A DNA stretch of 32,945 nt. It comes from Bdellovibrionales bacterium. GTDB taxonomy: Bacteria > Bdellovibrionota > Bdellovibrionia > Bdellovibrionales > UBA1609. Below are positions 2,943 to 27,882 of the stretch, in pieces. The first letter of the stretch is position 1, and each line of letters begins with the position of its first letter. The notes beneath the pieces are model-generated. The model worked only from the letters and a program-made list of their open reading frames with translations, did no database searches and was not told where the DNA came from. Where the stretch lies: contig JABSOQ010000029.1 of assembly GCA_013216195.1 (NCBI GenBank), forward strand, positions 1 to 32,945. The letters are read 5' to 3'. The translations under genes and the position numbers were made by a program.

Positions 2943-3566
2943 ATGGAAGCATCACAGCCTTCGATCAAAAGTTTTAAGAGATTCAAAATAAACAGACTCA
3001 TTGCTTCAGGGGGGATGGGAGATGTTTATGAGGCTATAGACACATCCAATGGATCTCGGGTCGCCTTAAAACTCATGACCATAGACATTGAAGACAAACT
3101 GCCTGATGCCCAGCGCAGGTTTAAGCTTGAAGCTCAAAGCCTCGAAAGGCTCGATAGTGAGAATGTTGTGAAGATTATCGAGACAGGAACTTTTGAGGGT
3201 GTACCTTATATCGTGATGGAGTTTCTTGAAGGGCGCTTGCTGTCTGAGATTACGGATAACTTCGTTTTTGGCGTAGATGAAGCCTTTCCGATCATGCTGC
3301 AGTTGCTCGAGGGCCTATCGGCCTGTCATAAGCTTCGAATCATTCACCGAGACATTAAGCCGTCTAACATAATAATCACAGATGCGGGTACTGCTAAGAT
3401 TCTTGATTTTGGTATCGTCAAAGATCTAGAAGGCTCTAAAGGTGAGCAAACCACTCAAGGTTTGATCATGGGGAGTTTTAAGTATTTGTCGCCAGAGATT
3501 GCGAATTGCTTGTCTCCAACCCCTAGGTCTGACATTTGGGCTCTTGGGGCGTCCGCTGATCACTAG
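2943..3566 (+). pseudogene. Ser/Thr protein kinase, N-terminal part of a broken gene
   Basis: Hanks-type (PknB-like) Ser/Thr kinase domain, 207 aa before the frame stops. Visible motifs: glycine loop ASGGMGDVYE (22-30), ATP-lysine K43 in VALKLM, Glu63 in helix C, catalytic loop HRDIKPSN (135-142), DFG at 155-157, SPE (the APE motif) at 183-185, and SDIWALG of helix F at about 196. All catalytic residues are present. The frame then hits TAG 3564-3566 just after WALGAS. The rest of the C-lobe is found first in frame +1 (about 3560-3635, reading NLLKELNDPRFDFPEHARNG) and then back in the original frame (from about 3636, reading IPFELEGIIRKMCEPNPALR). Helix F to subdomain XI is about eight residues shorter than usual, so the first lesion is probably a small deletion and the second a one-base change. 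The downstream part is described in the next entry. Confidence 0.85.
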
Positions 3567-3671
3567 CAAAAATTACCCGAACCTTTTAAAAGAGCTGAAT
3601 GATCCCAGGTTTGACTTTCCGGAGCATGCTCGGAATGGATCCCTTTCGAGCTCGAGGGAATCATTAGAAAA

Positions 3672-5090
3672 ATGTGTGAGCCAAACCCTGCACTCAGGTA
3701 CGTCTCAGTTAGAGCCGTGCTAGACGATCTTAAATGGTTGCAAGAAAAGTACAGCCTCAAGCCAGATCTTGATATCTCCCACCTGTTCGAGAACTTTTCA
3801 AATGCTGATGAAATGGTACGCCTACTTGAGAGAGATAACCTTAACACCACTGAAGTTAAGCGGGTCATGGCTCAGGCAGCAAAAATTGGAAGAGACAATT
3901 GTTCACAGACCAAAGACGAACTAGATCTGTCTTTAGACTTCAATCTGCTTGATATGGAGTCACTAGAGGAGGCGCGAGCTGAGTTTCTCGCACTCTGCCC
4001 GGTAGCAGAAAAGCAGGCTTTGCCAAGGCCGAGTTTACAACCCTTTTTAGTGGTTGCCTTACTTCTAGCTCTAGTCGGCTTTTTAGGGATGAACAGTGGA
4101 AGGCTAAGTGAGAACCTGTATTCGTGGTACCAGTCTTTCCAGAAGGTAGCTAGTAATCAATCGATAATGGTCGTGAACACAAAAGTGAGCTCTGACCTCA
4201 GGCTTTTGAATCGACGTGTAGACTTTCAACCTCAGGTAGGCGTTAAAAGTCAGAAGCAGAACTATATCGACCTTTCTTGGCAAGATGACCGTGAGGCTTC
4301 TGAGCTTTTAATCGAGGTTTCAACAGAGCCGAGTTTTAATTCTGTTTTGGAGAGTCATCAGGTTTCTGGTACGAGCCTGAGATGGTGGCCTAAGCTCGCA
4401 GGCAACTACTTCTGGAGAGTGCGTGCCAAAGAGCCAGAGCAAGATGTGTTTCGCACGAGTAAAACTGGCATTTTGAATGTACTTCCTCATCCGCCGTTAT
4501 TCGAAGACTACTACGTTTTCAAAAAGTACGGAAAAACTGAAAGTCAATTGGCGCTTCTTAAGGTCAAGGCTGATATTAATTGGCCCAATCAACCACTTGT
4601 TGAGAAGTGGCAAGTGCAGGTTTCACAGAGCCCTCGATTTCATAAAATCGTACATTCACAAGAGGTGTCTAAGAGCCGCTTTCGATATGAGTTTTTAAGA
4701 TCAGGAGAGTACTTTATTCGGGTTTCTCCGATGGGTAACTTTGCAGATGGCTACAAACCGAGTTACTCGAGCACCAGGGTTTTGATTTCGAAAGATCTCA
4801 AGTTGAGAGCTCCAGCCTCAAGGGCTTTGCTGCCTTTGAAATCAAGCCGAGTGCGAGATCCTATGCAATTTGAGTGGGAGATGCTTGTGGGGGCCAGAAA
4901 TTATGAGATTCAGCTGTCTGAAACACCTGGTTTTGAAGCCGTATATCTCAGAAAATTAGCGTCAAGAAACAAGATGGTGATTTCTAAAAGCGCCATTCGC
5001 AAAGCTTCGTACTGGAGAGTAAAAGCAATCTATGCAGAGGGCCACTCGAAATGGAGCGAGCCTAGCCAAATTTTACTGGTAGATAAGTGA
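3672..5090 (+). pseudogene. Ser/Thr kinase, C-terminal part: subdomain XI, TM helix, FN3-like repeats
   Basis: Same reading frame as the kinase N-terminal part and its continuation. ATG 3672 lies inside kinase subdomain XI (CEPNPALRY; the Arg is conserved) and is not a natural start; the true frame is open back to 3615. After the kinase tail comes a cytoplasmic linker, one transmembrane helix (about residues 123-140, FLVVALLLALVGFLGM) and a large extracytoplasmic part. That part holds three beta-sandwich repeats with matching strands YFWRVRAKE, YFIRVSPMG and SYWRVKAIY, each preceded by a W- or K-rich strand and a phrase like 'STEPSF', 'SQSPRF' or 'SETPGF'. This is the FN3-like architecture of receptor kinases whose outer domain senses cell-wall or surface ligands. 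The intact gene would code for about 715 aa plus the deleted residues. A separate gene starting at 3672 is unlikely. Confidence 0.8.
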
Positions 5091-5532: not shown

Positions 5533-5865
5533 CTAGGTAGAACTTGAGCCACCTGAACTCTCCAGATACTCAACAAGTTGGCGATGGTAGTTGTTGAGCT
5601 GTTCTTTAAGCTCCTGGTTTTGGGAGATCTCTTTTATTGAGAACAAAAGGAGATCGCCGACTACGTCGCTTCTCCAAGAGCCGAATAGGTTAGCTATCTT
5701 GCCTTTTCTAAAGTTGCCGAGATCTTTCCACGAACTTTTAAGGCTACTGTATTGGGGGTCTTCCTGACTTGCTTTTTGGGGTAGAGAGGTAAGGCAAAGG
5801 CAAGGGCAAGGGTAGATTTCTAAACTCTCTTCGTACTCGTAAAGACTCTTGTCATCGTTTTCCAT
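5533..5865 (-). CDS. Hypothetical protein, 110 aa
   Basis: Starts at ATG 5865 (minus strand) with a GAGG about 10 bases upstream. The protein is soluble, with an acidic N-terminus (MENDDKSLYEYEES), three close cysteines (YPCPCLCL), a basic middle and a helical C-terminus ending in a Gly/Ser tail (GGSSST). No signal peptide, no membrane helix, no family I recognise. It follows the 72-aa gene on the same strand by 28 bases, so the two are likely an operon. The frame continues for 132 codons beyond its TAG, so this may be only the N-terminal half of a larger protein. Confidence 0.55.
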   Translation of the reverse strand: MENDDKSLYEYEESLEIYPCPCLCLTSLPQKASQEDPQYSSLKSSWKDLGNFRKGKIANLFGSWRSDVVGDLLLFSIKEISQNQELKEQLNNYHRQLVEYLESSGGSSST

Positions 5866-12963: not shown

Positions 12964-15087
12964 TTGGCAGCCGCTGAAACTGAAATAGATGGTGGAGGAG
13001 CCAGCCCAGCTACACAGCAAGAGGTTGAGGCCGCCGTAGGCGCTGAGGGCTCGGCGGGCTGTGAAGCCATCACCTCTCAATGCTTAGTCATAGAGAATGA
13101 CTTTCGTGACCACCTCGTCGGGGTCTCACAGCAGACGGTGGAGCCTTTTCAGCAGACTTACCAGTGCCTTATGGGCTCTGTTGAAGCCGGCGAGATTTGT
13201 GCCCAAATCAACACGGCCGCTCTGGCCTTGCTCAGTGAGTACAGAGCCGCGATTGAGTTTCTTAACAGCAGAGCAATGTGGTTGGAGATTGAGAGGCTTG
13301 ATAGCACTACCAATGGGCTGGGCCGTCGATGCTTTGTTGGAGAAAACGGTGAAATCGCTTTTGATGGCGACTTGAATTTGCCAATGGTGCAGGCCACAGA
13401 TTACAACCGTTGTGAAAACCTAATCACCTCGGCTGAGATTCAAGAGCAGGTCTCAGTTCTGGCGGCTGATCGATCGGCTACAGGTGTTTCTGAGGCTCAT
13501 TTTCGTGCCATTGAGGCCTTTATGAGTTCACCAATAAGTGGAGTGATCGATCAATCGATACTGAACCGAACCCCAGTCACTAATCAAGAGATGTTGGATG
13601 CTTTAAAGCGAGCCTTTCATCGCTTGGCTGTTGGAGCAACCCAAATCCAAACCCACTTGACTGAGTTGAGGGACCCAGAGCTTCATCAGGTCTACATTTT
13701 TCAAAATCAGTTTGAACAGTTCACCGAAGGGCTCTCTGGGTCACAAGCTGCACAGGCTCCACGTTGTCAGTCTTGTGCTAACGTCTTTTCTGATTGCCGC
13801 TTAGGTCAAGATCGTCCGCAAATGCCGAGTATTAACCCCGCAGTAGACTTAGTTGCGGAGGCTGGCATGACTTTCGGAGAAGCATTGTCCGGCTCGAGGG
13901 GAGAGCGGTGCCAGGCTCGAGCCAATAGTTTTGCTCGAGAGCTGTTTCCATTGACAGCCATCATCGATGCCAGTCAGGCTTTGGAGAGGGTGGGGCAGGC
14001 AACTGATGCTGGTATTATGACAAGATCAGAGGCCAATCTCGAAACAGCACTACAGTATTTGAACCTTGCTTTTGGGGTAGCTGAGGTGCCGGGTTATAGC
14101 TACTTAGCCGAACAAGGTCTGAGAGGTTTAGCAAGGGTTGCAGCTGGTGGCTTGGCGAATTTGCCAACAAGATCGCCAGGTCTGCCAAGTGGTTTAGTAG
14201 ATCTTGCTCAGCCCTATACAGATGCGAGAGTGCCTGGCGGTATGCATGGGCTCAGCGTAAATGGTTATCAAGAAGGCCAATTCATTCGAAGCCTTGAGAT
14301 CTCATCAGGTGACCTGCCTTACGACCAAGCTTTGAGAGACCCTCGAAATGCAGTTCAATATGGAGAAATGGCCGACCTGCCAAGGGTTGAAGTTTCGCCG
14401 ACTGATATTGTGCTGGTATCGGGTGAGCATAGTGGCTCAGCCTCTGTCGTAAGACTTGCAACCTTACCAGACGGTAGACCTGTGGCGATCAAGTCTCTGG
14501 CGATTGATGATGAAATTGTAGGGCTCAACCCTGATCCGAATTTCTTGCAGCAGAGGTTCTTAAGAGAGGCTCAAGGCTTTGAGATTGCCGATGCGATGGG
14601 TATCGGGCCGAGGTTTCACGGAGTGTATGTCGATGAAGCTGGACGACCCAATTTCGTAATGGATCTGGCCACAGGTGACTTTCCCTCTCAAAGTGGTGGT
14701 AACATCACAACCCAAACCTTTACTGATTTTGAAGAGATGTTTCAAAGAATCCAGAGATCTGGCCAGGGCGCCAACCTTGAAGACTTTCAATTCTTCGTGA
14801 CAGACACTGGCAGCTTGAGAGTGATTGATGCCGGCAACTTCACTCTCACTCCGACTCCCAATTCGACAGGAGCTGATCGGTTTCGTGAGCGAGTAATGCA
14901 GTACAGACTAGAGCTTTTGCGGGAGGCGAGCCCTGATGTCGGCAGAGTCTACTTAAATCAGCTGAGAAGCGCCGATAGAAGAGCCTACCTAAGCACCATG
15001 GATACCATCGCTAGGTGGAATCATGACCAGTTGAGGCATCTGTATGAGGCTTATGAAGATATGCTAATTGAAGCGGGCTCGATCTAG
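12964..15087 (+). CDS. Large exported protein with C-terminal degenerate kinase-like domain
   Basis: At least 707 aa. TTG 12964 is the first start after an in-frame TAA (12934-12936), but the frame between them already reads LLGAVAVGSLAAAET, the end of a Sec signal peptide. Upstream of the TAA, ATG 12868/12871 opens the same frame with SKKPFNFVLFQTLLAK, so the true start is probably there and the TAA interrupts the leader. Residues 30-330 are helical with many cysteines. Residues 475-640 look kinase-like: P-loop region VSGEHSGSASVVRL, Lys510 in RPVAIKSL, Glu535 in FLREAQ, hinge FVMDL (564-568) and VIDAGNF at 620-626 in place of DFG. The catalytic-loop position (NLEDFQFF, 604-611) lacks HRD and its Asn, so activity is doubtful. 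Possibly a secreted effector or pseudokinase; the function is not known. Confidence 0.7.
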   Translation: MAAAETEIDGGGASPATQQEVEAAVGAEGSAGCEAITSQCLVIENDFRDHLVGVSQQTVEPFQQTYQCLMGSVEAGEICAQINTAALALLSEYRAAIEFLNSRAMWLEIERLDSTTNGLGRRCFVGENGEIAFDGDLNLPMVQATDYNRCENLITSAEIQEQVSVLAADRSATGVSEAHFRAIEAFMSSPISGVIDQSILNRTPVTNQEMLDALKRAFHRLAVGATQIQTHLTELRDPELHQVYIFQNQFEQFTEGLSGSQAAQAPRCQSCANVFSDCRLGQDRPQMPSINPAVDLVAEAGMTFGEALSGSRGERCQARANSFARELFPLTAIIDASQALERVGQATDAGIMTRSEANLETALQYLNLAFGVAEVPGYSYLAEQGLRGLARVAAGGLANLPTRSPGLPSGLVDLAQPYTDARVPGGMHGLSVNGYQEGQFIRSLEISSGDLPYDQALRDPRNAVQYGEMADLPRVEVSPTDIVLVSGEHSGSASVVRLATLPDGRPVAIKSLAIDDEIVGLNPDPNFLQQRFLREAQGFEIADAMGIGPRFHGVYVDEAGRPNFVMDLATGDFPSQSGGNITTQTFTDFEEMFQRIQRSGQGANLEDFQFFVTDTGSLRVIDAGNFTLTPTPNSTGADRFRERVMQYRLELLREASPDVGRVYLNQLRSADRRAYLSTMDTIARWNHDQLRHLYEAYEDMLIEAGSI

Positions 15088-15670: not shown

Positions 15671-15999
15671 CAAAAAAATAGACGCAGTTTTTAGGGAAAA
15701 GGGGGTGCCTGCTTCATTTCTTGAAAACGCCAGTTTTCGGTCTGACCATTAGATATTTTCGACTTTAGGCTGCTTTGGATTTGGGTTTTGCAACACATCC
15801 TCAAGTGCAGCTGCACAAACACTAGACATCTCTCATTTGTGGCGATGATTCATATCGAGACAGTGTTCAACTAGTTGATAGTCTCAAATGGAGCCATTGA
15901 CCAATAGACTAGAAATCAAAATTTTTAATACAATACTCGCAGCATCGTTTAACAAACTACTTTAACATTTGCGAAGGATGAAAATTGCTGGGGGGCAAG
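15671..15999. other. Intergenic region, no gene seen
   Basis: 329 bases between the CoA-binding gene and the glycoside-hydrolase-like gene. AT-rich towards the right end. A weak hairpin GAAAAC/GTTTTC lies at 15723-15738 without a T-run. TTGACC at 15897 and TACAAT at 15929 resemble promoter hexamers but are 26 bases apart, too far for one promoter. No open frame with coding character on either strand. Confidence 0.6.
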
Positions 16000-16467
16000 A
16001 TGAATACACGAAGTCTATTAGGCGTCTTCTTTGGTGCCATATCTCTAGTTCTGATGATCTCTTTTCAGAACTTCTCACCACTCTCACAAGGTTCTCGTGT
16101 TTACGAGTTATACCTGAAAGATGGAAACAATCTCATCGGATACATCTGTGCCAGTGATGGCTTTAGTCTAAGAGCTGAAAGAGGCAATCACAGGCTACAG
16201 ATCAGTCATGTGTTGAGGTTCGATGAAAACAGTTCTAGCCGCAGACATAAAATGTGGAACCGATTTAAATATTTAAAAAGTGCCTGTGGTAACAGTAGAA
16301 AAAAACTCTATTTTATCTCGCAGCGACTCACTGGCAACGTCAACACCAAGACCTACAGCAACGTGCGCTTTAAATTAAATGGCTCAACGGTTAACCCTGT
16401 GGTTTTAACTCACAGCCGAGATCATCAAGTGGGAATTTTGTATTCGACCTTTCATTGCCATGTTTGA
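16000..16467 (+). pseudogene. Glycoside-hydrolase-like exported protein, N-terminal part
   Basis: ATG 16000 follows a G-rich ribosome binding site (GGGGGG at 15990-15995). Signal peptide or anchor: MNTRSLLGVFFGAISLVLMI. An N-terminal beta-rich domain (about 30-145) ends in HQVGILYSTFHCHV, where TGA 16465-16467 stops the frame. The frame continues directly with EHHPSRIRDILRYIRGN and a typical catalytic-domain start, so the stop falls inside one gene. In related glycoside-hydrolase-like proteins the string 'VG(V/I)FYFLWHG' precedes '...HHWGEP..GYY', the same order as seen across this stop. All three fragments together would encode roughly 615 aa. Confidence 0.65.
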
Positions 16468-16497
16468 GAGCATCACCCGTCGCGCATTCGAGATATC

Positions 16498-17403
16498 TTG
16501 CGCTACATTCGTGGTAATGCAAGCCACTTGGGGCCACTTAACTGGCACCACTGGGTTGAAAAGCCCGTTGATGGCTACTACTGCTTGAGCCATGTTGATA
16601 GCAATGGTGTAGAGCGACCCAATAATGACTTGATTGACAAGCACGCCTTCTTAATGACGAATGCGGGTATCGATTACATCTATATCGACATTTCAAATTG
16701 GCCAAGGTTTTACAGCAACGGTCAACTTCGAGATGACGTCAGAAAAAGAATCGTCGTACCAGTAAAAGCCATCCTAGACCGTTACTCTAGTCTGCACATT
16801 AGCCAAAAGAGGTATGTGTCTAAGATCGTATTTTTTATGGGCCTAACCAATCGGCAGGGTGGCAGCACAGTGTGGAACTCTCAGAGCTCTGCGGACTGGC
16901 TGAACGAGATCTACAATACGAGCAAGTACAGAGATCTGCTTTATCGTAGACCAGGCAATAGTAAGCCGTTACTGTTGGTTAAGACTCAAAATGCAGTTGA
17001 TGACCCGAACCCGAATGTTGCGCAGAAATCATACCGCTGGGCTAACGTTTCGGCTGTGATCAATAACTTCAATCTGGGCAATAAGTTTGAGATCATTCCA
17101 ATGTGGGCAAACATCAACCATCACTTTCGGCATGGTAACTCGTCGAGCTTGAACAAAAATAATGTTTGGTCCTACGTGGAGAGATGCCGAACTTCTAGTG
17201 GTAACATTGTACAAGATTGCGATCAGAGACGAGCATCGCTTGGTAGACAGATTGCTGTGGCACCTGCCGCAAAGAATGGCAGTGCACTGGCTTCAGATAT
17301 GCAAACCAGACGAAACGGTAGAACCTTTTGTCAGCAGTTTAGAAGAGCCTCAAGAACCGACGTTGATACTATCTCTCTCAAACTGGAATGCTTGGGTAAC
17401 TAG
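16498..17403 (+). pseudogene. Glycoside-hydrolase-like protein, central catalytic-type part
   Basis: Same frame as the N-terminal part; TTG 16498 is an arbitrary internal codon and the frame is open back to 16468. Motifs match a TIM-barrel glycosidase-like family of unclear substrate: NWHHWVEKPVDGYYC, then DKHAFLMTNAGIDYIYIDIS, then KPLLLVKTQNAVDD and FEIIPMWANI. True coding in this frame runs to about 17345 (NGRTFCQQFRRAS). Beyond that the family's final strand is found in the next frame, so the last ~20 residues before TAG 17401 are out-of-frame noise. The substrate cannot be named: catalytic acids are not certain from sequence alone. Confidence 0.65.
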
Positions 17404-17845
17404 AAGAACCTGTACAGGCAGCAACAGCATTGGTCGTACGACCACAGTGGTAAACGGTCAGAGAGTGAAAAGAAGTCATCCAGCCTGGGATGACATCAAC
17501 GGCCATCGAACGGTCTATAGATGCAAGTCTGGTAGACGTGATTTTGTGCAATACACTTCGAGCCAAAGGAACCAGTATTCTGACCTATTCAACAAGTACT
17601 ACAGCAACCCAGGTGGGTCTGGTAACACACACCAATGGAAGCGTAATTTCTTTCCACAGTTTGTAGATCACTTTGTGAAAGAAAGAACTCGCAACATTGA
17701 GCCGAGCAGTGAGAACTTTGATTGCTACTACCAGCTTATGCGGTACTCACTGCTAGCTAAGAAGCGTAACCAGTCTGACATCTCGATGAATGTAAAAAAC
17801 CGTCTAGAAAGCAGCAGTGTGTGTAACTTCGATTTGAGGCGATAG
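17345..17845 (+). pseudogene. Glycoside-hydrolase-like protein, C-terminal part after a frameshift
   Basis: Frame +2 relative to the central part; open from 17162, but with coding character only from about 17345. It begins EPQEPTLILSLSNWNAWVTR, which fits the last barrel strand of this family (usually '..li.gWNEW'), then an extension with Arg/Ser/Tyr-rich repeats and cysteines ending CNFDLRR. The shift is a one-base indel between about 17341 and 17360. It is followed by a set of hairpins and a bidirectional terminator. Confidence 0.6.
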
Positions 17846-21027: not shown

Positions 21028-22098
21028 ATGCCTTTTAGCAAGAACCTAATAGTGAGTTCATTTTTGAGTTTGTTTGTTTCAGCTTCAGCCGTTGCGGCGG
21101 TCGACGTGGGAGACGTAGCTGGTAATGAGAAGAAAGTGCGGTTTAGCTTCACTGGGCCAGACATCGACAATCGATATAGCAAGCTCGTTGATGCGTTTGG
21201 CGACAGTGCTGAGAAAGGCTGCGCTGATCTTGAGACTGGTAAAGACAATTTGGGTTTTCCAAAGGTTGAAACAGTATGTTCGATTGTTCTAGAGATGGGT
21301 GTGCATTTTGAGATGCATGTTAGCGGCGCTTTAGAGATTAAGCCAACATCGGCAGACCGTTTCTTTATGAATGATGTGTCGACTCGCCAGCCTCTACTTG
21401 TGAGCTTACAAGAGATTGTGCCAATGAGGAGCTGCACAATTACGAACTCAAACCCAAGCTGCTCGACTCGTCTTGGTCCGAGAACTGTAAATCATTCTCT
21501 CGCAAGACTCTCTGATGATTTTAATGGCGATCCTCAAAGTCTATCAGGTGCAGTGTTTTGCGCAGACGAAAGCTACTCGAGTGGCGGGCTTACTGTTTTG
21601 TCTGGTTGCTACATTTTCGCTAAGAAAGACAGAACAGCAGTGAAAATAGACACCAACTTGAATTGTGATATCGAGAACTTGCTTTACAAAGAAGTGGGCA
21701 TTCGTATGGCTCCAAAAGGTCAGCCTGGCTCGAATGTTGAGATTTTCTTGAAACTCGGTCGAGGCACTCGCTTGAACGAGATTCACCGACCAGAGAGCGC
21801 AAAAGAATTTCAGCCAGAAGTCGATAGACCACAAGCTTTTCATTTGCAGTTAACAGACTCAGCGTTCAGCGGTGTGATTGGCTCTTTTGGGCAACGTGGC
21901 GACAACCCAGATGCTGGTAAGCTCGTTAAAACCACAGATATCGAATGTCTGCAAGGAGAGAGCGTGAACCCTTTTGACAACACCTTGAGAGTTGTCTGTT
22001 CAAATCAGAGTAACAAGAACATCAACTTGTATGAAAGCGGCGATGCGGTCGGTTTGATTCAAGCCAGAGCATGCAATTACTACGACTCTTTTAGATAG
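21028..22098 (+). CDS. Exported protein of unknown function, 356 aa
   Basis: ATG 21028 follows AAGGGGGAG (21016-21024), which rules for this start over a possible upstream in-frame start at 20950. Signal peptide MPFSKNLIVSSFLSLFVSAS plus AVAA, cleaved before VDVGD. The mature protein of about 330 aa is rich in strands and contains cysteines in pairs (KGCADLE and ETVCSIV; RSCTITNSNPSCS; GAVFCADE and LSGCYIF; LNCDIEN; DIECLQG and RVVCSNQ). No motif I recognise. The ribosome binding site and leader resemble those of the next gene (ATG 22442), but the proteins differ. Confidence 0.75.
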   Translation: MPFSKNLIVSSFLSLFVSASAVAAVDVGDVAGNEKKVRFSFTGPDIDNRYSKLVDAFGDSAEKGCADLETGKDNLGFPKVETVCSIVLEMGVHFEMHVSGALEIKPTSADRFFMNDVSTRQPLLVSLQEIVPMRSCTITNSNPSCSTRLGPRTVNHSLARLSDDFNGDPQSLSGAVFCADESYSSGGLTVLSGCYIFAKKDRTAVKIDTNLNCDIENLLYKEVGIRMAPKGQPGSNVEIFLKLGRGTRLNEIHRPESAKEFQPEVDRPQAFHLQLTDSAFSGVIGSFGQRGDNPDAGKLVKTTDIECLQGESVNPFDNTLRVVCSNQSNKNINLYESGDAVGLIQARACNYYDSFR

Positions 22099-22153
22099 AA
22101 TTTTGACCAACAATCTTACCAGGCCTTCAAAAATTCTGTTTTCGAGGGCCTGA

Positions 22154-22179
22154 TTGCACCGAAAATGTTTTCGGTGCAA
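22154..22179. repeat. 26-base palindrome
   Basis: TTGCACCGAAAA, spacer TG, TTTTCGGTGCAA: 12 perfectly paired bases on each side. The two-base spacer is too small for a comfortable RNA hairpin loop, and no T-run follows, so an operator-like protein-binding site is as likely as a terminator. Confidence 0.6.
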
Positions 22180-22428
22180 AACCTGTCGGCTCGCATCAGT
22201 TGCCAGCTAACCTTTTGCTGAACACTCTGAGCCACTCTTTTTCAAGTGCAAAACGGCTCTACACAACAACTTCAAATCGCTTGTGAGATTGATCTGACGA
22301 CAAATTTGCGTCGTCTCATAATGAGTCAGCTAGCAAAATACATGTAATTTTAGTCATCTGCAAGATTATAGTGATCATGCTTGTAGATGTAATCCCCACT
22401 CTTTGATTGAGAAACTAAATAGGTAATC

Positions 22429-22438
22429 AAGGGGGGAG
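22429..22438 (+). promoter_or_regulatory. Strong ribosome binding site before an interrupted gene
   Basis: AAGGGGGGAG, three bases before ATG 22442. It shows that translation is meant to start here, although TAA follows after only 12 codons. Confidence 0.75.
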
Positions 22439-22441
22439 AAA

Positions 22442-22884
22442 ATGAAGTTTTTAGCACTAATACTAAAGATTGTACTGTAAGTATCGCTTATTCACACAAC
22501 AAGTGCTGTCGCTGGTTTGAATATTCCAGACGACTACTCGCTACCAGAGGGTGGCTTCGATGACCCATGGGAAGATGTCAAAAGTCAGCCCGGTAGTCAG
22601 TAAGGAGAGGCTGGGGTCGGCAATGACGGCAATGCTTTTAACGGAACAAAAGAGCATTCGATTGGGGTTGATCCCGAGACCGGCAACTACACAGGGCCAA
22701 GTTCTTTTGGCGGTAACGATGACGATGATGGTGACAGCAGCCATTCAGGCAATTCAGGCTAGAACACCTCGAGTGGCCCGACGCCTACAGATGTGTTTGC
22801 GAGCCCTACCCCTAAGACCCGAACACGAATGGTCCTCAAGACATCTTTGACCCTTATCTTGGTGAAGAAACCAAGGCCCAACTG
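22442..22884 (+). pseudogene. N-terminal part (signal peptide and linker) of a large interrupted exported protein
   Basis: From ATG 22442 the frame reads MKFLALILKIVL, TAA (22478-22480), VSLIHTTSAVAGLN: together a normal Sec signal peptide with a stop in its hydrophobic core (a Leu TTA to TAA change would do it). It goes on as a plausible acidic, Gly/Asn/Asp-rich secreted linker, with further stops TAA 22601-22603 and TAG 22760-22762. Near 22812 the frame shifts by one, after which DPNTNGPQDIFDPYLGEE runs into the next open frame without a stop. The strong ribosome binding site and continuous secreted-protein character show that this was the start of the gene that continues at 22885. Confidence 0.6.
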
Positions 22885-24324
22885 GTGGAGGAGTTGCAGA
22901 GAGCCCTTGACCGTGCATTAGGTGTAATTAGCTATGGTCTCAATGGTCGGTCAGAGTCTTGGCACAAAAACCACAACGTAACAAGTGGAACTCCTGCAGA
23001 GAACGTACAAGCTGTTGCAGATGCCATTGAGCCTCATGTTGAGGCTGCGAAGGCAGGTCATGAGCGAGCTCGAAAAGCCTTGGCTGATGTAACTGAGCTA
23101 CGCGATGCTGCCGAGCAAGCCATTTATGACCGCGAATATCGTAGAGCCTATGATCAGGGAGTTAACGCCTATTATAACGGTCAAACTCTCGATCCTTACA
23201 CAGGTCAGCCAGTAGGCGAGCCTGTAAGTTACTCTTTTGATGCCCAAGGCAACTATCAGGGCCAACCAAAAATAGAAAACCCTCGAGTGGCACCTGAAGA
23301 CAGATTGGTGCCTTCAGGGCCTATGAGCAGGGCTGTTCAAAACGCGGCTGTGAACACATCATCTTCAAATGAGGCGTATGAAGCGGCCTTTCTAGACGAA
23401 AAACAAAGCATTCCCGGCCCAGGTAGAGACCCTGAAGATCAAAAAAAGATTGAGGTGATGAATGAGCTTGATGAGCTTTACCGCGAGGGGCACTACGCAA
23501 ATCTAGGTCTGCCAGGCGATCCAGCAGTGCAGTCATTGCGAGGCTATGACCTCAACAATACAGAAATATTTGGACTAAACAACACCATCGCTGTAACTGG
23601 CCCGCAGCCAGCGATAGCCCAGCTAGCAACAAGTTTAATCAACAACCTTGGGGGAAGAAGCAACAGAGGGGGGAGAGTGCTTGCTTTCAACGCAGATATC
23701 TTCTCCAACTTTGCGCTCGGCGGTATCACTGCAATTCCGACCACCTATAGCAACACAGACTTCACCATTGGTGAGGTTGTGCGGCACGAACTGAGTCATG
23801 CGGGGAGAACAGCTGCGTTGAATGATGCGAGAGTAAGGGCTCGGCAGATGAAAAGAAGGCTCGGTAGCGAGGATTTGTCGGCCGAAGAGAGGGGTGAATT
23901 AAACGCTCAACTCGACGAGGCCCATGCCGCAGAGAGAGCGGCTCTGACTGCAAACGATCGTATCAGAAAGGTCGAAGTAGACGGAGTCACTTACAATCTC
24001 GATGGATACACGGGCCACATCACTGAAATTCATTCTCATGCGAGGCAAACTCCAGATGCGATGAAAGATCGAGTAATGGTGAATCTTGGTGTAACTGATG
24101 AAGTTGCAGAAAGAATTTCTCAAGCTTTAATGAATGACCCCTTAGTTGAAGAGGCGGCTTTGACTCTCGAAGCTTACGCAATGGGAAGGCTAGGTGATTC
24201 AGCGGTTCAATTTTCAAGTCCGTTCGGAGCGCCTGCAGCTGAAGTCGGTTCGGTTGATCCTGTAGGAGTAGGTGGTGGGGCCGAGGCGGGCACCGCTAGT
24301 CTGGCAGGTCGAGACTCAGAATAG
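22885..24324 (+). CDS. HExxH zinc metalloprotease-like domain, middle part of an interrupted gene
   Basis: 479 aa as an open frame from GTG 22885, but the same frame is open back to 22816 and the GTG has no ribosome binding site, so it is not a true start. N-terminal 100 residues: helical, with a coiled-coil-like stretch. Residues about 190-450 form a protease-like domain: zinc-binding HELSH (301-305) after IGEVVR, and a likely third ligand Glu381 in TGHITEIHSHARQ, as in gluzincin-type metallopeptidases. The C-terminus is Gly/Ala-rich (GVGGGAEAGTASLAGRDSE), like a linker, and stops at TAG 24322-24324. That TAG is followed in frame by the next open frame. Predicted to be exported through the upstream signal peptide. 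The exact peptidase family is not recognised. Confidence 0.65.
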   Translation: MEELQRALDRALGVISYGLNGRSESWHKNHNVTSGTPAENVQAVADAIEPHVEAAKAGHERARKALADVTELRDAAEQAIYDREYRRAYDQGVNAYYNGQTLDPYTGQPVGEPVSYSFDAQGNYQGQPKIENPRVAPEDRLVPSGPMSRAVQNAAVNTSSSNEAYEAAFLDEKQSIPGPGRDPEDQKKIEVMNELDELYREGHYANLGLPGDPAVQSLRGYDLNNTEIFGLNNTIAVTGPQPAIAQLATSLINNLGGRSNRGGRVLAFNADIFSNFALGGITAIPTTYSNTDFTIGEVVRHELSHAGRTAALNDARVRARQMKRRLGSEDLSAEERGELNAQLDEAHAAERAALTANDRIRKVEVDGVTYNLDGYTGHITEIHSHARQTPDAMKDRVMVNLGVTDEVAERISQALMNDPLVEEAALTLEAYAMGRLGDSAVQFSSPFGAPAAEVGSVDPVGVGGGAEAGTASLAGRDSE

Positions 24325-24336
24325 CTACGTGAAGAC

Positions 24337-27009
24337 GTGAGATCTCTGTCGCTTGAGCTTTCAGATATAATTCGCGAACAGGAAGGCTCTGATTCTGTAA
24401 AACAGTTTTTAAGCAATGAAAAGCGGCGCATTTCAAATGGGTTGGCCTTAGTTCAAAACCTGCATAGTTGTGAAGCCCTGCTTGAAGCTGACCCCTATAT
24501 GGTCTCGGGCAAATACGTTCTAGCCGATGATGACAATCAAATGCAGCTTTGGAGCTGCCAGGTAAGTGAAGGTGAGCTGACTTTGTCTGTATACATTGGT
24601 GCGATTGATCAGCCCGGGTCTTGCGCTGACACGGGCTCGTGTGAACTGTTCAGAGTTCAGTCTGAGGTCATCATTTGTAAGAGCACTCCAGATCAGCCGA
24701 ACCAATGCGAGCCAAGGGGGCTAATCGTACCTCCAGTGCTGAAGGCCGATTTGGGAAGTGTGGCCTGTGTCTACGGTGAGAACTATGGTTTCACGACAAA
24801 CGGTGTGTGGACGACAGATGGCTGCTCTGGGCGTTTCGAGGTCAAGTTCTTCGCCGACAGAGGCACGCTTGATGCCATGGCAAATGACAAGTTTTGGGGT
24901 GAAGATCCTGCAAGAGCTCCATTCTGCAGACCCAACACGACTGGTATTTCAATTGCGAGTCTTACTGACATTTCAAGTTTAAGGAGCAGACACAACTGGG
25001 TCACTCCAGAGAGAGCACAGTGTAGCCCCGATTCTGAAAGAGCAAAAAGATCAAGACACACACTTGAGTCGCTAGTTGGCCTGTTTGAAAACTACAAAAC
25101 GATTCACGATAGAAAGTCAGGGGCGAATTCTATTCGAAAAGCTGAAATTCGAGTTGAGAGAAAGGCGAATGACCTCACTCAAAGACTCATTCACAACGAA
25201 AGACTTAGAACTTGCTCTGAGTTGAGCGAACTTTTGCCGGATGCCATTTCAGGTGAGTACTTTTTCTACTCGTCTCAGCCGCACCCTGAGCACCGAAGAG
25301 TGAGACCTAAATCTGTAAGCTGTGACTTTCGCAAAATTGTCTGGACTGAAAAGCCCGAGGTGAGAGCAACTTATCAGGCTACAGCTACCACCAATCCGCG
25401 AAATGATGTAGTGATGAAGTCGGAGTTCTTGTCGATTCCAAGGCACTCGATGCCATTTATGAGCCCAAGCCGATATCTTGGTGACGATGTTACAACTGTG
25501 ATTGCGGCGAATCCTTATACCTCACCCATTTTGGCTGGCTTTAGAGTTTCAAAATGTTACCCGAGGAAGGCCATTGAGATACCCGAGCATGGTCCCTACT
25601 CTTACCTAAAAAAGGGAGTCTTCGGGGATATCATAGTAATTAAGAAAGGTCTGCGGTACTGTTTTAGAATTGACGAAGAGCAAAGGTTTGATACAGATCA
25701 CATTGCTCACTCTTATCTCATGAGCTCAGGTGCAGTCGACTCAATTTTTGAGCGCGATATCAAGCTGATCGAAGATCAAGAGTCTAGCCAAAAAGTCACT
25801 CTCGCTTGGAAGAGCGAGTATGCCACAGCTGACCTGCAAATTGAGGTGAGAGGCGAAGAGGGTCAGTTCTCAAAGTGTAAGAGCATGAACAATGATGGCA
25901 TGTGGCTTATGCAGAACATGCTTTCAGGTGGCCTCATGAGTGATGGTTGGATTTACTCAGACGAGTGGGATGGCTCTTGTTCAAACAGTAGCCGTCATGC
26001 CTTGGCGGCTTCGACCCAGGTGCGAATTTGTGGCCGTGTGCCAAGCGTTTACACTAGTGTATCTGGTATAGCCCCTGGTGAGTGGGTGTGTACGAATCCA
26101 GCAAACATCGACAGTTCATTTGTCAGATTGGCTCAAGCTCCTAACAAAAAGCAGGTAAAACTGAGTTTAGAGCTAAATGCAGATCGGTATAACAAACTCG
26201 ATTCTTACATTCGGCCTGCGGGCTCATCATCAGCTCAGTTGTGTGATGCCGACCTCTACCGAATCGGTCCACAACTTTCGGTTGCGATATTCTCAGGAGT
26301 TTACACCGGATCACCGCATTTTGACGCAAAGATCTTGCTTGGTGGTAGCTGCAGTGCTTCGGGCGTGCTTGCTAGTTACCCATTCGACTCAACCTACGAG
26401 ATTCAAGTTTGCTACCAGGGAGCCTTTGATGCCTCTACTCCGAGTGGTTGTACTGAGTTCTATCCAATACAGAGCTCTGACTTTAGTGTTCCTAGTTTTG
26501 CTAAAGAACAAGGTGTGTTTTTGCAGTGGTCGGCTCAAGCAGAGGCAAAGAGCTACCGAGTGGATTATGAGACCAGCAATGGTAAATTCACCCCTTGCTT
26601 TAGCACCGAGACTGTTGGCGTTATGTTCGAGGGTAGTTGTGAGCTTGCGACCACCAGAGAGAGTGTGCCGTGGCTGTCGACTCAAAGGCTCAGAGTGTGT
26701 TCAATCACGAAGCTTAGAGGTGAAGATCTTGAGCTTTGCTCTGAGCCCTTGGCAATGAACTCTTCAGCTCTTAATTTTACGCTCCCAACTCTGCCACCAA
26801 ACTTGTTTGAGGTAGAGCTCGGCACAGAGGCTCCTTTTGTTAATCCTTGGGAGTCGAAGCTTGTTGGCTGCCTCACAAAGAGTGATATGAACAAGAGTCA
26901 GATGACTTCTCATCAATCGCTCTTGAGTAACAGTAAAAGAGTAGTTGTAGAAATGGACGGCGTTCATTTCTGTGCCTACGGAGAGCAAAAGAAGAACTTC
27001 AAGGCCTAA
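24337..27009 (+). CDS. Large Cys-rich multidomain exported protein, C-terminal part of the same locus
   Basis: 890 aa. GTG 24337 lies in the same frame as the metalloprotease part, four codons after its TAG, with no ribosome binding site and no signal peptide, although the content (many Cys, FN3-like strands) is that of an exported protein. This argues for one gene read through the TAG position. Near residues 45-60 (CEALLEADPYMVSGKY) and 293-310 (CSELSELLPDAISGEY) the motif 'C-x2-L-L-x3-P-x3-SG-x-Y' recurs; it resembles the start of fibrinogen-type domains. The C-terminal half has repeated beta-sandwich units with the pattern 'W...A.SYRVDYETS' and 'RVC', like FN3 modules. Likely an adhesin or substrate-binding part of the protease. 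It ends at TAA 27007-27009. Confidence 0.65.
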   Translation: MRSLSLELSDIIREQEGSDSVKQFLSNEKRRISNGLALVQNLHSCEALLEADPYMVSGKYVLADDDNQMQLWSCQVSEGELTLSVYIGAIDQPGSCADTGSCELFRVQSEVIICKSTPDQPNQCEPRGLIVPPVLKADLGSVACVYGENYGFTTNGVWTTDGCSGRFEVKFFADRGTLDAMANDKFWGEDPARAPFCRPNTTGISIASLTDISSLRSRHNWVTPERAQCSPDSERAKRSRHTLESLVGLFENYKTIHDRKSGANSIRKAEIRVERKANDLTQRLIHNERLRTCSELSELLPDAISGEYFFYSSQPHPEHRRVRPKSVSCDFRKIVWTEKPEVRATYQATATTNPRNDVVMKSEFLSIPRHSMPFMSPSRYLGDDVTTVIAANPYTSPILAGFRVSKCYPRKAIEIPEHGPYSYLKKGVFGDIIVIKKGLRYCFRIDEEQRFDTDHIAHSYLMSSGAVDSIFERDIKLIEDQESSQKVTLAWKSEYATADLQIEVRGEEGQFSKCKSMNNDGMWLMQNMLSGGLMSDGWIYSDEWDGSCSNSSRHALAASTQVRICGRVPSVYTSVSGIAPGEWVCTNPANIDSSFVRLAQAPNKKQVKLSLELNADRYNKLDSYIRPAGSSSAQLCDADLYRIGPQLSVAIFSGVYTGSPHFDAKILLGGSCSASGVLASYPFDSTYEIQVCYQGAFDASTPSGCTEFYPIQSSDFSVPSFAKEQGVFLQWSAQAEAKSYRVDYETSNGKFTPCFSTETVGVMFEGSCELATTRESVPWLSTQRLRVCSITKLRGEDLELCSEPLAMNSSALNFTLPTLPPNLFEVELGTEAPFVNPWESKLVGCLTKSDMNKSQMTSHQSLLSNSKRVVVEMDGVHFCAYGEQKKNFKA

Positions 27010-27048
27010 GATCTAGCAGTCGGATATCTATTTACTTCAATAGAAAAC

Positions 27049-27414
27049 ATGAGCCTTCCAGTTACTGTTTCGCAGAGAAACGAAGTTATCTCTGTTGCTG
27101 AGGGCTCAGCTCCTCCGGCAGAAGGAGCGATCGCCTGTCTTAGGCAGCGAAGTGCCTCAAAGATGCTCTGGTCATCAGGTCTTGATCAGCCACATGCCCA
27201 TCAGGTCGGTCGCTTCGCCGAGCGCCTGGTAGAAAAAGATGGCAGGTTCTATTGCCTATTCGACAAAGAAGCCGATTTGGTTACTGAGGTAGAGACACTG
27301 TTTATCGAGAGAAATCTGGTTGTTGGTTATCTGTTCAAAAAGGCCGGGGCAGAGCCTGTTGAAAAACAGATGTCATTTGAGAATTTCCCAGAGCTAAGTG
27401 TTCAAAGAGACTGA
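27049..27414 (+). CDS. Hypothetical protein, 121 aa
   Basis: From ATG 27049, 39 bases after the large protein's stop; no clear ribosome binding site. No signal peptide. Soluble alpha/beta protein with two cysteines (AIACLRQ and FYCLFDKEAD). It contains RFYCLFDKEADLVTEVETLF and VVGYLFKKAG as strands of a small fold I do not recognise. It may share the transcript of the upstream gene and ends at the terminator at 27471. Confidence 0.5.
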   Translation: MSLPVTVSQRNEVISVAEGSAPPAEGAIACLRQRSASKMLWSSGLDQPHAHQVGRFAERLVEKDGRFYCLFDKEADLVTEVETLFIERNLVVGYLFKKAGAEPVEKQMSFENFPELSVQRD

Positions 27415-27470
27415 CTGACTGCTTGCTTGAAAAAGCTCGCTTATTGAGCTGAAATTCTATTCAAATTGGA

Positions 27471-27501
27471 CCCCACTTTTAGCTAAGTGGGGTTTTCTTT
27501 T
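27471..27501 (+). terminator. Rho-independent terminator
   Basis: CCCCACTT / AAGTGGGG stem of 8 bp with a 6-base loop, followed by TTTTCTTTTCT. It ends the transcript of the 121-aa gene and probably of the large locus before it. Confidence 0.92.
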
Positions 27502-27597
27502 CTCAGGCGATAAAGCATCCTCTAGATAAGTACTTTAGAAGTAGCTAGATTATTCGCACAATAGAAGCTCAAGTGGTCCCAGCAAAATAACTAAGAG

Positions 27598-27882
27598 TTA
27601 GGGGACATAACGGCAGCGGAACCCGAATCTACTACTGGAGACGGATGGGGCGCTGTTTAGATCTGTGTAAAAAAGGCCTGCGCCTGCGTTAAAGATCCAA
27701 TCGCCCCCACGAAATATGGCACCACCAGGAGTAGAATCATCAGAGAAAAACCCTATCGAAAGCAGATCCGGCTTGATCACCAACTCACCCTTGCTCATTT
27801 CGATCCAAATTGGCTTTTTCAGCATGCTTATAAGCTTTTTGTTTGTCTTAAGATCACTGAACGGCCAGTTCAAAATCGCCAC
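27598..27882 (-). CDS. Fragment of an FGE/SUMF-type protein (C-terminal end)
   Basis: 94 aa from GTG 27882, preceded by AGAAGG; GTG 27891 overlaps that site. The last 45 residues match the C-terminal signature of formylglycine-generating-enzyme-like (SUMF1/EgtB/PvdO) proteins: GGAIFRGGDWIFNAGAG, then YTDLNSAPSVSSSRFGFRC. In that family this is the end of a 250-300 aa domain; the rest is missing here. No signal peptide. The residues before it are not recognised. It is probably a remnant of a larger gene, or a very short family member. Confidence 0.5.
   Translation of the reverse strand: MAILNWPFSDLKTNKKLISMLKKPIWIEMSKGELVIKPDLLSIGFFSDDSTPGGAIFRGGDWIFNAGAGLFYTDLNSAPSVSSSRFGFRCRYVP

Follow-up and report, generated by a model that had tools for sequence, protein, structure and literature searches.

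Proteins with the DUF3011 domain have a single characterised member, AKL, the egg lectin of Aplysia kurodai, which binds galacturonic acid and is built of three DUF3011 repeats alone (PMC5484111). The locus described here, from an uncultured Bdellovibrionales bacterium, has in the half that we call B one copy of this domain scoring above the curated Pfam cut-off, but the copy is set within ~1,030 residues that also include further modules, among them fibrinogen-like segments. Bacterial fibrinogen-like proteins (GGGWT_bact, NF040941) offer another term of comparison: B has a start of the form CxxLLxxDPxxxSGxYxL followed by Cys, whereas its match lies under the cut-off (13.1 bits vs 30) and no GGGW core can be seen. 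The likeness to RTX and DUF4214 exoproteins is restricted to a paralogous B protein encoded elsewhere in the genome, which terminates in RTX repeats and DUF4214 copies; the B under study has neither. The other half of the locus, A, resembles zincin metallopeptidases in having a HELSH motif and a Glu ~80 residues downstream, both placed in helices by a predicted structure of low confidence (pLDDT 37, from a two-row alignment), yet neither Pfam nor NCBIfam gives it a peptidase family match above cut-off, and its intact relatives have EELHH instead.

Extent and Interruptions of the Coding Tract

The window, namely the whole stretch of 32,945 nucleotides that was analysed, is contig C212 of a draft genome of 4.1 Mb (97.6% complete, 296 contigs). 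Codon and dicodon statistics, the dicodon model having 22 further stretches of this genome (45,899 codons) as its training set, delimit a coding tract of ~1,657 codons between 22,442 and 27,411. Frame 2 scores best across the first stops up to about 22,800, and frame 1 from there across TAG 24322 and TAA 27007 up to TGA 27412, in agreement with an earlier note on this DNA that had described one frame apart from a single shift near 22812. These frames are top-scoring along nearly the whole tract, with a few 120-base windows within B slightly preferring another frame and pieces of 12 and 16 codons too small to be judged alone. The strong ribosome binding site and the signal peptide containing TAA 22478, also claimed previously, are both present in the sequence. 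The features of the tract, all on the + strand, are as follows.

22431..22438, +, Shine-Dalgarno sequence GGGGGGAG, preceding ATG 22442
22442..22513, +, signal peptide MKFLALILKIVL*VSLIHTTSAVA, with TAA at 22478; leaders are found at the start of the intact relatives as well
22514..22815, +, linker of A rich in Gly, Asp and Ser, containing TAA 22601 and TAG 22760, the frame change lying near its end (dicodon)
22816..24189, +, A part with a helical region and a zincin-like core (pairwise z to the L049 and L009 A proteins)
23785..23799, +, HELSH motif; EELHH at this site in both intact relatives
24025..24027, +, Glu381, possible third metal ligand; aligned Glu in A relatives
24190..24324, +, junction rich in Gly and Ala, with no counterpart in the relatives; its last codon is TAG 24322 (alignments)
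24325..27006, +, B part, lectin/adhesin-like, with no leader of its own (E 8.5e-29 to the B of G058)
24469..24558, +, fibrinogen-like segment CxxLLxxDPxxxSGxYxL...C (GGGWT_bact E 0.073; COLFI E 0.0013 in the C241 relative)
24661..24846, +, DUF3011 domain (PF11218, 27.0 bits vs cut-off 25)
25213..25330, +, second fibrinogen-like segment (alignment, by inspection)
25528..25725, +, Cys module copy 1 (leave-one-out profile E 4e-7)
25776..26780, +, beta-rich repeats with Cys, FN3-like on inspection only (no Pfam match)
26848..27042, +, Cys module copy 2, broken by TAA 27007 (leave-one-out profile E 4e-4)
27010..27414, +, in-frame C-terminal extension of B, to TGA 27412, with no leader of its own (dicodon)
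27121..27363, +, Cys module copy 3, scoring above all 2000 shuffles (leave-one-out profile E 0.009)
27468..27505, +, intrinsic-terminator-like feature, hairpin at 27468-27495 (terminator scan)

The tract is interrupted six times, by five in-frame stops (TAA 22478, TAA 22601, TAG 22760, TAG 24322 and TAA 27007) and by one frame change near 22,815 (range about 22,800-22,830), which leave 502 codons open from 22816 to 24321 and 894 from 24325 to 27006. A locus had been proposed at 22442-27009, with ~1,520 codons and five interruptions; it is indeed a real tract, but its end has to be moved to TGA 27412. Because TAA 27007 interrupts copy 2 of a Cys module that occurs three times, it counts as a sixth interruption and not as the end of the tract. 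Each copy of this module is recognised by the profile derived from the other copies with a score that none of 2,000 shuffles reaches. A strong terminator-like hairpin, with an 11-pair stem and a T-rich tail, begins 3' of the tract at 27,468, and no second one was detected by the scan of the + strand from 22,050 to 27,700.

Intact Relatives with Separate A and B Genes

When the halves were searched separately, B homologues emerged in a Bdellovibrionia MAG (G058, contig JAUHWN010000134.1; E 8.5e-29) and, as partial ones, on contigs C241 and C179 of the present genome. Searches with a single sequence fail to link the A proteins, which have diverged too far; by pairwise shuffling, the A of the window gave z values of 9.3 and 6.5 against those of L049 and L009, versus 1.4-2.6 for the control, and the values for the A proteins altogether were 9.3, 6.5 and 7.0. 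In the MAG (L049/L008) the two genes lie 18 bases apart, a 558-residue A protein with a leader coming first and an 884-residue B protein with its own hydrophobic leader second. On C179 (L009) a 610-residue, leader-bearing A protein precedes a B protein of 1,256 residues that resembles a lipoprotein, the paralogue with RTX repeats and DUF4214 copies mentioned above. These leaders were called by eye from a charged start and a hydrophobic core, not by a predictor. Both relatives are intact, consisting of adjacent separate genes with a leader on each and no stops of the kind found in the window.

Could A and B then be separate living genes also in the window, starting without leaders at GTG 22885 and GTG 24337? 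Their long open runs (479 codons for A and 890 for B) would be consistent with this arrangement, but neither start has a convincing ribosome site or leader, as previously noted for the later pieces, the coding signal extends upstream of both and beyond 27007, and both relatives have leaders; we consider it very unlikely. The proposal of one large locus holds for the window, where a fused tract has one leader, but not as a conserved single protein. A full-length fused A-B homologue, which the earlier note had suggested looking for in related genomes, was not found in searches of this genome and of the collections: the halves form separate adjacent genes in two loci, each gene intact and with its leader (G058 and C179), and the fused form is not universal. 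This arrangement is the one that the note had itself named as refuting its proposal.

The A profile, run against 369 genomes of the phylum, detected A only at three loci (the window, G058 and C179), and the A-B gene pair is present in 2 of these 369 genomes. Scans of wider collections returned the G058 contig JAUHWN010000134.1 as their sole match, and those of viral contigs and of plasmids returned none. The A-B family is narrow and undescribed.

Separate from this distribution, weak extra matches of the A profile were Lon-like proteases and a different secreted protein with HEMAHA, the latter not tied to A by pairwise shuffling, and profile matches to the PDB were due to chance. Just upstream of the intact paralogous pair on C179, L009 2821-3663 encodes a secreted, matrixin-like protein with HEILHLLG. 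On C241, L010 6456-7477 (- strand) encodes a B-type N-terminus, fibrinogen-like plus DUF3011, without an adjoining A and apparently frameshifted after DUF3011.

Possible Functions of A and B

The HELSH motif and Glu381 are where they had been reported, at 23785-23799 and 24025. Among A copies, however, the HExxH motif occurs only in that of the window; the intact relatives have kept its Glu and second His, with Glu replacing the first zinc-ligand His. Since this ligand is missing in both intact relatives, proteolysis by A is doubtful, and A may be a pseudoenzyme or the user of another metal site.

The sole significant domain in the tract is DUF3011, of which small proteins are common in this order: a profile of the B N-terminus matches 33 of 141 genomes, nearly always over the DUF3011 part. 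Of the C-terminus formerly described as fibrinogen-like and FN3-like, the fibrinogen-like character receives weak support from below-cut-off matches, whereas the FN3-like one is a matter of inspection. The predicted structure of the B N-terminus has a pLDDT of 30, again from a two-row alignment. DUF3011, the sugar binding of AKL and the fibrinogen-like signals together make sugar-dependent attachment the best guess for B, which, its C-terminal modules being swappable as well, is probably a surface lectin or adhesin.

Decay versus Sequencing Error

One alternative is that the gene is intact and encodes one exported fusion protein, the breaks having arisen through consensus or assembly errors where coverage of the MAG is poor. 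The fragmentation into 296 contigs, the crowding of breaks near the start and the persistence of long open runs are compatible with this possibility. Yet none of the 47 ABC-transporter matches in this genome contains a stop, when the local stop rate would predict ~16 in the ~5,300 codons of the stronger ones, and AstB, an S9 peptidase and an 881-residue sensor kinase are whole on the same contig, whereas its protein-kinase gene at 2943-5090 is, like the tract, broken. The 47 matches without a stop make sequencing error unlikely as a general cause. Gene loss fits better, although a local defect may be present in this single assembly; overall, an intact gene appears unlikely. Programmed readthrough or recoding would account for the conservation of the frame past each stop, but it would have to operate in one gene on a frameshift and on five stops, of two different kinds, at codons that normally end other genes of the genome and in a protein whose relatives lack such stops, which renders it extremely improbable.

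We therefore favour the reading that the tract is a pseudogene, a conclusion that is likely but must be qualified by the distribution of the breaks: three of the five stops and the frameshift fall within the first 125 codons (leader and linker, 22478-22815), a clustering with a chance of roughly 5e-4 under uniform placement, judged post hoc. This is tighter than simple decay predicts and counts against the reading.

Evolution of the A-B Locus

How did the halves come to share one frame in the window, while remaining separate in their relatives? At the junction, ~45 Gly/Ala-rich residues are followed by one TAG and then directly by B, whose first residues correspond to positions ~35-60 of the other B proteins, beyond their leaders; no leader for B is found there in any frame. 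As A continues via the linker into a leaderless B, we infer that the ancestor in this genome was probably an A-B fusion, which later decayed. The simplest scenario would start from a neighbouring gene pair, A with a leader, a low-complexity linker and a zincin-like domain, and B with a leader, fibrinogen-like and DUF3011 lectin-like domains and a C-terminus that varies. Loss of the sequence between the genes and of the B leader in this lineage would have produced one A-linker-B frame ending at 27411, which then gained five nonsense changes and one frameshift. The direction is not polarised between fusion here and splitting elsewhere, because only two other A-B loci are available.

The tract would thus be the likely remnant of an exported, fused A-B protein. 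The copy in the window has no open reading frame with an intact leader, and with its first stop inside the signal peptide no exported product is to be expected now. This does not sustain the suggestion of a working exoenzyme, possibly of a new predation- or matrix-related type. Function is the most tentative part of our interpretation: intact B would most likely have bound sugars on another surface, with A as its processing or structural partner.

A broader idea, which we regard as rather unlikely though worth stating, is that A-B represents a new exported two-component type in Bdellovibrionota, in which a constant zincin-like A with EELHH would process or display B proteins with a common sugar-binding head at the N-terminus and interchangeable C-termini (RTX/DUF4214, GWAC modules or Cys modules), the window holding a fused and decayed version. 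If A were a metal-dependent partner of a modular lectin, this would be a new exported pairing. The Bdellovibrio group counts many predatory bacteria among its members, and the locus may illustrate how large surface proteins are built, fused and lost in this group, the copy found here being a probable relic.

Other Genes in the Window

At 12964-15087 the window encodes a 707-residue protein with no Pfam match, the C-terminal part of which looks by eye like a divergent kinase fold. The serine/threonine kinase gene at 2943-5090 is disrupted by TAG 3564 together with a compensating pair of frame changes, its frame leaving and returning between about 3,560 and 3,640, and part of the C-lobe is apparently missing. 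The reading frame at 15985-17845, without a family match, also appears disrupted, with a stop codon at 16465 and a shift of frame near 17,390, and a short gene at 5865-5090 (- strand) looks interrupted, with an in-frame continuation beyond its first stop near 5,533.
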